From IMG/VR virus record IMGVR_UViG_3300048672_000522, positions 1-60,534 of that record: a stretch of 60,534 nucleotides of DNA; one strand, written 5' to 3'. Of this stretch, positions 37,807 through 40,245 are shown piece by piece; position 1 is the first letter of the stretch, and the number at the start of each line of letters is the position of its first letter. A model generated the notes under the pieces. That model had not been told where the DNA came from. It worked only from the letters and a program-made list of their open reading frames with translations, and did not search any database. The position numbers and the translations under genes are program-made. Source of the DNA: a virus.

Positions 37807-40245
37807 TTATGCCTTTAACACAAATTTCCCACTGCCAATTGTCTTGTTGATTGCAGCATCAATTGTAAGATTTTGGCAACGATTATCACCTTCTTTGAAC
37901 TAGACATGGATCCATGTGCTAGCACCTTTGTATTCTAGAATCAATTGTCTATATGCAGGCAGTATCTTTTGAATCTCGATGATCGCCTGATAATGTTGTT
38001 CTCTAGAGAAACCTGACAGTTGAATATCAGCAGCACATCCAATCAAGTGATCCGATGTTTTCTAGCCACCTATTTTACTATTTACGGCCTCTGATCTCCA
38101 AGTGTTTGTGATTCGCATATTAGGGAACTTAGCCTTAATAGGATTCAGACAGTTGACTGTCAACTTCTTGAGGTTACACACGATCTCGGAAGCAGTCTTG
38201 CCGTAGTTCTTGCCTCTAGGATAACCAGAACTTCCCGTTAGAACATCGCCAAGTTTGAATAGTGATGACAATTGATATTGCGGAACGATGTCAGCATCAG
38301 TCAGATTTTCACATTCTGTTGCTAATGGTTTAGGTGTCTTTTCTTCTGCCACAGTTTCTTCCTTTGCATCACCTGTTGCCTCTTGAGTCTCATCCTCATC
38401 GAATTCCTTGGCGTTTCTCACCTGGAATTCTGCTGGAGATCCTTCCTCTGGGGTCTCATAGTTTGCATTGAACATTGCTTTTCTGGTAGGAGTTGTGAGC
38501 AAAGGTAGGTCAATTTTACCGCCAGGTTCTTCTGTCGGAATTTCCAGCCCCCCTACTTTTCTGCCAGAGTTTAGGTGAATTTTCTATCCTTCCAATGAAG
38601 TCTCACCTGCGGATTCTTCCATGAATGACCCATCTGTTTTAAGACTGATACCTTCACTTGCATGCAGTGCAAAATTCTTACCCACAGCGAGAGTGTAATT
38701 GCCAGTGACCTCGGTTTTCATATCACCAAGAACTTGTAATTTTGCATCATTCTCTACTCTAATGTTGGCGTCACCGACTACAGTGAGATTGCAATTTCCC
38801 TTGATGAAAATGTTTCCATCTCTGTCCAGAATCTCGTACGAATCTCCAACGATTCTAGTGACCTTCGTACCGTTAACATCAATCTCTTCATATGTGCCAG
38901 ACTTGTGCCATCTATGGAGTCTCTCGTTTCCCTTAGAATCATCAAACTCCTCGATATGCCCACGCTCTGTCATCCTGACATGGTTGTTTGGCCAAGTTGG
39001 ATTGTATGGTACCGGCGGTTGTTTCCATGTCTTACCAGATGCAGTCTTTACCTATTTGATTCTACTTGCATCTTTTCTGGCAACAATGGTCTCATTAATG
39101 TTCTCTGCTCTGGCAAGACGGTTAGAATCAGGTTCATTCTTATCTCTGGGATAAACACCATTTGGATCTTTAAATCCTTCTCCAGTGCTAGACTGCTGAG
39201 TAAAGGTAGGAGGTTTGACCCATCTACCAGCTTCTTTTTGTGTTTTTTCTTCTGTCAGAACTTGATCTGGCGTCTTGTCGATCTTGCCTTCTGAGTTCGG
39301 GAAACCATCTCTCTCAAACCATTCGCGTTCTTTGGCACGTCTGTTACCGAGATTCTTCGCATATGTCATCGGAATCAATGCTGCAGCCTCATCATATCTA
39401 CCTGAATTCAGTGATGAGAAGAACTGAGACTTGATCAGTCTTGGGTAACCGATGTTATATGCCATCTAGACTACAGCCTCAAACATACCCTGAGTCACAG
39501 GAGCAGAAAGATTGCGTTTGATAGCAGCAACAAATTCCTTGTTCAGCTTGTTCTTGAACAGATCAATACATTGTGCCTTAGTCAGAACGGCCCCGGATCC
39601 TACTCTGGAATTGTCCAGCAGATAAGTAGAACCGAAGCCAATAGTCCAGACATTGTTTATGTCTTGGTATGCATAGATTCTAGTCTCATCTGGTATGTTT
39701 TTCCAGTTCTTCCGATAGTCGTTTCTGCCCGCAGTCAGTGATGACAGTGCTTCTTCATCCATAATGAACATCTCTCCAGCATCGGTCATTGAGAGTTCTT
39801 GTGGGTACTTTAGTGTGTCCGGAGTTGTGTCACCAGAAATAACAGGGTTACCATAGCCATCTGTTACCGGATTTCCACTCTAGTCCGTTACTACGGAGCC
39901 TGTACTATCTCTTGGCACAACTGGTTGGTCAGAAACTTCCTGACTAGTGTTATCAGGAGATTCAAACGGCACGCCGGCTATAGAACCTAAGATGATAGGC
40001 TGCTGGCGATGTTCATCCGCGAAGGCGATTGCCACCCATGATCCTTCTACTAGCCCCAGCGGGGTCTGACCAACTCCACTCACACCAGCAGATGTGATGT
40101 CTTGGATCGGCATTGCCCATGGTAAATCTGTAGTCGGCAGTTCTGCTTTATTCTCAGAATGGACACCGAAAACTCTTACTCTGCATCTGCCGATCTTGAA
40201 TTTATCATTTGTACTTCTTTGTTCAACTACACCAAAATAAATCAT
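37807..40245 (-). CDS. gp5: Baseplate hub spike gp5: lysozyme plus M15-like peptidase
   Basis: An 812-aa tail spike. Residues 1-125 form the OB-fold (GRCRVRVFGVHSENKAELP, GSWVAIAFADEHRQQPIILG). A GH24 lysozyme follows, with likely catalytic Glu187, Asp195 and Thr201 in DETRIYAYQD and WTIGFGSTY. Residues about 425-560 are repetitive beta-helix (EILDRDGNIFIKG, LQVLGDMKTEVTG). An acidic linker then leads to a C-terminal peptidase M15-like domain with SDHLIGCAADIQL (SxHxxGxAxD) and STWIHVQF (distal His). T4 gp5 has 575 residues and ends with the beta-helix, so the second hydrolase is extra. Six TAG codons. Confidence 0.93.

Follow-up and report, generated by a model that had tools for sequence, protein, structure and literature searches.

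We have analysed the gp5 gene of a T4-like phage. It lies in a virus record of 60,534 bases, which is called the window hereafter. The gene comprises 812 codons at 37807-40245 on the minus strand, where all features below lie (stop codon included in these coordinates). In the standard code its frame is interrupted by six TAG codons (residues 122, 260, 398, 554, 728 and 782), and it is a single frame when TAG is read as sense. The same holds for ORFs across the window, which are split by TAG in the standard code and become long once TAG is sense. The neighbours of gp5 match PHROGs for baseplate wedge, tail tube cap, head closure and DNA end protector, while the whole protein matches PHROG 430 and others, labelled 'baseplate hub subunit and tail lysozyme'. 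Its best match to T4-type gp5 chains has an E-value of 2.4e-36, and the T4 gp5 chains match it in sequence over the OB fold and the beta-helix.

Along the protein, Pfam matches Gp5_OB, Phage_lysozyme, Gp5_trimer_C and Peptidase_M15_3 in that order, so that the preliminary description of this DNA, which had placed a T4-type lysozyme and a C-terminal M15 domain in one gp5, is confirmed. The gene encodes one T4-type gp5 with an OB fold (residues 1-100, 39946..40245; PF06714, E 8.3e-25), a GH24 lysozyme (about residues 155-322, 39280..39783; PF00959, E 7.4e-20 at residues 189-304), a trimerisation region or triple-stranded beta-helix (about residues 401-562, 38560..39045), an acidic linker (residues 563-644, 38314..38559) and a Peptidase_M15_3 domain (residues 645-812, 37810..38313; PF08291, E 1.8e-8, above cut-off). 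For the beta-helix, Gp5_trimer_C (PF22178) reaches an E-value of 9.5e-6, below its curated cut-off, and the T4 gp5 chain matches over 401-504 and 457-559. The linker between beta-helix and peptidase is acidic as had been claimed, with 20 Asp and Glu against 9 Lys and Arg. The two motifs reported earlier, SxHxxGxAxD and WIHV, are found as SDHLIGCAAD at residues 731-740 and as WIHV at 778-781. NCBIfam gives only weak lysozyme matches on gp5, below cut-off. The T4 protein shares the OB fold, the lysozyme, the long linkers and the C-terminal triple-stranded beta-helix; in contrast, it ends at the beta-helix (residues 389-575 in the accessible part of PMC7650644), to which the window protein adds a linker and the M15 domain.

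The meaning of TAG has been inferred from codon counts. Between the window and its nearest relative L001 there are 72 positions where only one side has TAG, of which 40 have a Ser codon opposite and 12 a Gln codon (window against contig G001, L091-L095, in 32 non-overlapping ORFs with identity of 60% or more). The commonest opposite codon is TCT (23), which is two changes away from TAG, whereas CAG (10) could arise by mutation alone because it is one change away. In a six-row alignment of gp5, the columns of TAG728 and TAG782 hold Ser in the other rows, with L001 also having TAG there. Since TAG aligns with Ser far more than with Gln and the gp5 columns agree, Ser is likelier than the usual code-15 Gln for this phage, as judged by comparison with one relative. 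Our initial reading of TAG as Gln was replaced after these counts. The Pfam scores rose with Ser, from 72 to 77.9 bits for the lysozyme and from 34.9 to 40.2 bits for M15, where the Ser run used shorter pieces, and the Peptidase_M15_3 E-value went from 1.8e-8 to 4.1e-10. Run on the window and on five pieces of the contig of this relative, ARAGORN found no tRNA, and hence no suppressor tRNA.

For the C-terminal domain, a structure was predicted from residues 641-812 with a 45-sequence alignment (pLDDT 93.6, pTM 0.90). Among solved structures it comes closest to 1lbu, a zinc DD-peptidase (Z 12.9, rmsd 3.1, 135 aligned residues), which is also the sole Foldseek match at E <= 0.001 (E 4.2e-5). The next matches, which the tool's scale rates as middling, are Hedgehog chains (Z about 6-7), the LysECD7 endolysin (6.5) and ChiX, an L-Ala-D-Glu endopeptidase (6.3). 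A sequence search of the PDB with this domain gave nothing significant (best 1lbu, E 1.5). The M15 fold that had been proposed is thus obtained in the model, and the outcome that would have spoken against it, a model without such a fold, did not appear. The window domain is of the M15_3 type, with His733 (38047-38049), Asp740 (38026-38028) and His780 (37906-37908) as predicted metal ligands, Glu771 (37933-37935) as the probable catalytic base, and a conserved Arg717 (38095-38097). Zinc binding and peptide hydrolysis are predicted from this model, and the candidate bond may be a DD-crosslink or a stem bond of the L-Ala/D-Glu type. Glu771 lies nine residues before His780, unlike the E/DxxH spacing of the base in classical M15 enzymes; since the spacing differs, its role as base is assigned solely from conservation.

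Searched by itself, the M15 domain matches only phrog_894, an endolysin family (E 1.5e-23). For this reason we do not claim that PHROG 430 contains M15, even though the PHROG 430 match of the whole protein covers residues 394-793. The endolysin match also bears on where the domain would act. It could in principle work in the virion or in the cell that makes it, processing gp5 or another tail protein, for instance, instead of attacking the host wall: its closest fold family is a peptidase, and T4 gp5 undergoes a maturational cleavage at Ser351-Ala352, between lysozyme and beta-helix (PMC7650644, accessible part). However, among the listed fold relatives, those from bacteria and phages are peptidoglycan peptidases, the family match is to endolysins, and T4 gp5 is cleaved though it ends at the beta-helix (PMC7650644, PMC4576200, both in their accessible parts). 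We therefore regard a processing role as highly improbable.

The predicted catalytic residues are kept in close and distant relatives. In a first scan, which retained the best 80 of at least 503 relatives and whose search pattern lay around the Glu, M15 was matched in 80 of 81 loci; His, Asp and His were present in 79 of the 80, the remaining one ending at the contig end, and the acidic position held Glu in 78 and Cys in one. Among the M15-bearing ORFs of 151 viral loci and the window, 139 of 146 have His, Asp, Glu and His, and most exceptions are cuts at contig ends. Because the pattern of the first scan surrounds the Glu, the count was repeated with patterns lying outside M15, in 146 loci from two scans after two contig-repeating loci had been dropped. 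This gave the four residues in 132 of 140 ORFs and in 101 of 109 distinct domains, a count that shares sequences with the 139 of 146. Six of the eight deviating ORFs are open at a contig end, in L108 the alignment stops early, and L190 has Asn for Glu. The six of the 146 loci without an M15 match all have a gp5 frame that runs off the contig. Loss of metal ligands in close relatives, the other outcome that would have counted against the domain, did not appear. Overall, the feature is more than a chance resemblance, given the profile E-values, the confident fold and the conservation in the family.

This conservation bears on another alternative, in which M15 is catalytically dead and binds only peptidoglycan or metal in the manner of Hedgehog. 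Hedgehog chains are the second-best fold matches, and these domains are not known to be peptidases. On the other hand, Glu771 and the three ligands are kept nearly everywhere, and apart from cuts at contig ends the Glu is seldom replaced (by Cys in L042, by Asn in L190); a dead domain seems very unlikely. As a separate observation, Cys645 (38311-38313) and Cys690 (38176-38178) are both present in 92 of the 109 distinct rows of one alignment and no row has the first Cys alone, where some absences may be alignment ends; the co-occurrence pattern is as for a disulfide.

The lysozyme model shows a GH24 fold (pLDDT 89.5), and its best PDB match is 6et6 (Z 19.4, rmsd 1.8, 142 aligned residues). The catalytic Glu was hard to place because of an insertion after helix A, and the local profile alignments do not reach it in the window, L001 and L135. 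Its assignment to Glu165 (39751-39753) thus rests on a global alignment and on the model. In the alignment, from which relatives with a truncated lysozyme were left out, the columns of Glu165 and Asp195 (39661-39663) are invariant in 33 of 33 domains, and in the model helix A ends at residue 165, the place that Glu11 has in T4 lysozyme. A profile table seeded with the window gives Glu, Asp and Thr for the window by construction and has not been used as evidence. Thr201 (39643-39645) is kept in the window, and the nearest relative L001 has Ala at this position. With Glu165, Asp195 and Thr201 all present, muramidase activity is predicted for the window lysozyme. The corresponding active site of T4 gp5 is given as Glu184, Asp193 and Thr199 in the available text of PMC7650644.

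We have also considered Ala172 (in LTAGRN) as the site of a lost catalytic Glu, based on a line-up with VEG in L135. This reading was rejected because the Glu165 column is invariant, helix A ends at Glu165, and the EE of the relatives matches EEALSS of the window. Of seven relatives with the same insertion, five (L168, L170, L171, L173 and L174, some of them near copies) have EEG[LI]SS, and L135 and L169 have EE followed by another residue.

Both enzyme domains are under strong purifying selection in the sequences compared. Against L001, the whole gene has a dN/dS of 0.041; by region, the value is lowest in the OB fold (0.011), followed by M15 (0.023), the beta-helix (0.035) and the lysozyme (0.041), and highest in the acidic linker (0.098). 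These Nei-Gojobori values leave out TAG codons, have partly saturated synonymous sites and come from the sole comparison with L001, whose protein is 93% identical.

To see how the architecture is spread, we have collected ORFs with OB fold, beta-helix and M15 in that order from the viral loci examined, and found 187, which form 113 clusters at 85% identity; as the set was chosen for having M15, no frequency among gp5 genes in general follows from it. Of these clusters, 103 have a long middle region and the other 10 one of under 100 residues, where there is no room for an enzyme. According to Pfam, the long middle regions match GH19 in 45 clusters, Phage_lysozyme in 33 and T6SS_VgrG3-like_C in 3, that is, a glycosidase-type family in up to 81 of 103 if none matches two, and for the remaining ones no enzyme family reaches E <= 0.001. 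In six loci (L011, L120, L131, L133, L134 and L144, some near copies) the N-lobe of GH24 is lost and the four M15 residues are intact, so that not every relative needs both enzymes active. Among sequenced phages, the M15 domain was matched at all in 193 of 50,697 records, and M15 was seen on the gp5 protein of Caulobacter phage Cr30 and of pf16, BUCT-ZZ01 and the Melnitz phages. Judging from these matches, gp5 with M15 is widespread, is common in uncultivated phages and is not peculiar to the window phage; the middle glycosidase is swapped (GH24, GH19 or VgrG3-like), decayed or absent, and M15 stays.

It could then be asked whether wall cutting is the work of M15, with the lysozyme reduced to a decaying or structural remnant. 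The 10 clusters with a short middle region, the six loci that keep M15 without the GH24 N-lobe, the loss of Thr201 in L001 and the lower dN/dS of M15 than of the lysozyme would all fit such a reading. For the window itself, however, the three catalytic residues are present and a dN/dS of 0.041 means that the lysozyme is strongly constrained, while glycosidase-type matches are found in most long middle regions. A mere remnant is therefore rather unlikely. We consider it likely instead that this gp5 is the central spike of a contractile T4-like tail with two cell-wall-cutting domains, a reading well supported by sequence and fold, with the enzyme activities predicted.

On a more general level, it is plausible, though slightly less likely than not, that in a large T4-type clade M15 is the constant entry enzyme and the glycosidase an exchangeable cassette, T4 with its lysozyme alone being the unusual member. 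If this is true, the choice among GH24, GH19, VgrG3-like, unassigned or no enzyme is perhaps tuned to the chemistry of the host wall, and the peptidase would be fixed on gp5 here, and in other phages would also have been transferred to the PAAR cap. The VgrG3-like middle domain occurs in L051, L055 and L061 (E 4.2e-51 in L055, with which the other two cluster), and this family of C-terminal T6SS enzymes is common to T6SS spikes and phage spikes.

The preliminary description had put the peptidase at or near the membrane-piercing tip, and had taken the T4 beta-helix as ending gp5 at that tip. T4 gp5 does end at the beta-helix; the tip itself, however, is capped by the PAAR protein gp5.4 (PMC4576200, accessible part). 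We have searched 20 records and found a PAAR match in 14, of which 10 are over cut-off. On the L001 contig the match lies about 69 kb from gp5, and on the L135 contig it lies directly downstream of gp5; in the same search the window, a 60.5 kb fragment, yielded no PAAR gene. In Cr30 the PAAR gene adjoins the M15-bearing gp5. Since PAAR caps the T4 beta-helix and most of these records match PAAR, the M15 domain is probably not the piercing point, and a place beside the tip, on the linker, is more likely. There the peptidase would sit on a tether, in three copies per trimer.

In some phages, PAAR itself is joined to an M15-like domain. By Pfam, a single protein near gp5 in Pseudomonas phage Milchi combines PAAR with M15, the M15 score falling just under the curated threshold. 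In Paride and in Vibrio phage 1.244.A, tblastn and the motif give an M15 match on PAAR proteins, and PA5oct-like and Vibrio PAAR proteins also bear the M15 motif. The proteins of the PA5oct-like phages, the Vibrio phages and Milchi resemble the window gp5 in bringing an M15-like domain to the spike tip and differ in its fusion to the cap protein instead of the beta-helix chain. Domains of one kind thus reach the spike tip by two routes, which argues for a role at the tip.

Combining these observations, we propose that OB folds and beta-helix would form the framework of the spike trimer, and that the contracting sheath would drive the needle through the outer membrane, a separate PAAR cap probably serving as its sharp point. 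Three GH24 lysozyme domains would then cut glycan strands, and three zinc-dependent M15 domains, on acidic linkers at the end of the needle, would cut peptide bonds of the same peptidoglycan, the two activities together opening a hole for the tube. T4 enters with one wall-cutting activity, a lysozyme. A widespread second, peptide-cutting domain on the spike would change the picture of how contractile phages penetrate Gram-negative walls, and would explain the swap or loss of the lysozyme in relatives. Laboratory phages that already have M15 on gp5 are Cr30 and pf16.

The nearest described system to an M15-bearing gp5 is the tail hub of cyanophage A-1(L). Its gp15 has lysozyme, endoglucanase and peptidase domains, and the latter two each lysed host cells in vitro. 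Like the window protein, it combines glycan- and peptide-cutting domains on one tail-tip protein; unlike it, gp15 is the hub around the spike, and the spike gp25 is without enzyme as described (all PMC10966104, accessible part). A 2017 review (PMC5380687), in the part available, presents five virion-associated lysins that have two lytic domains each, none of them a T4-type spike, and for the virion-associated lysins of Gram-negative phages it names phi6 P5 as the only demonstrated endopeptidase. CwlP, HydH5, gp49 and gp61 of Gram-positive phages, covered by the same text, similarly have two lytic domains on one virion protein, although they are not T4-type spikes. A more distant parallel is provided by Neisseria T6SS loci, where peptidase M15 effectors are listed beside vgrG (PMC10210955, accessible part).

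The Cr30, pf16, BUCT-ZZ01 and Melnitz phages are alike in an M15-like C-terminal domain with the His/Asp/His motif on the spike. Cr30 also has a tail-lysozyme domain. Their middle enzymes differ from that of the window, being Phage_lysozyme2 in Cr30 and GH19 in BUCT-ZZ01, with none found in pf16, and Melnitz differs in having a split gene and a protein with OB fold and VanY-like domain. In their annotations these proteins appear as baseplate hub subunit, tail lysozyme or OB domain protein, and no product name mentions a peptidase; more generally, the public records examined label M15-bearing gp5 genes only as hub or tail lysozyme. The pf16 paper, in its accessible text, names gp5 a tail-associated lysozyme only (PMC5587285), and we found no comment on the M15 domain in the available part of the Melnitz paper (PMC9004378). 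No description of M15 in a T4-type gp5 was found in the literature at hand, where subscription papers are little covered. In Melnitz-3 (L003, 2959-6002), the first gene of the split gp5 has the OB fold and a VanY-like domain (below cut-off), and the next one has an OB remnant, the beta-helix and a C-terminal M15 domain, so this spike may carry two M15-clan peptidases.
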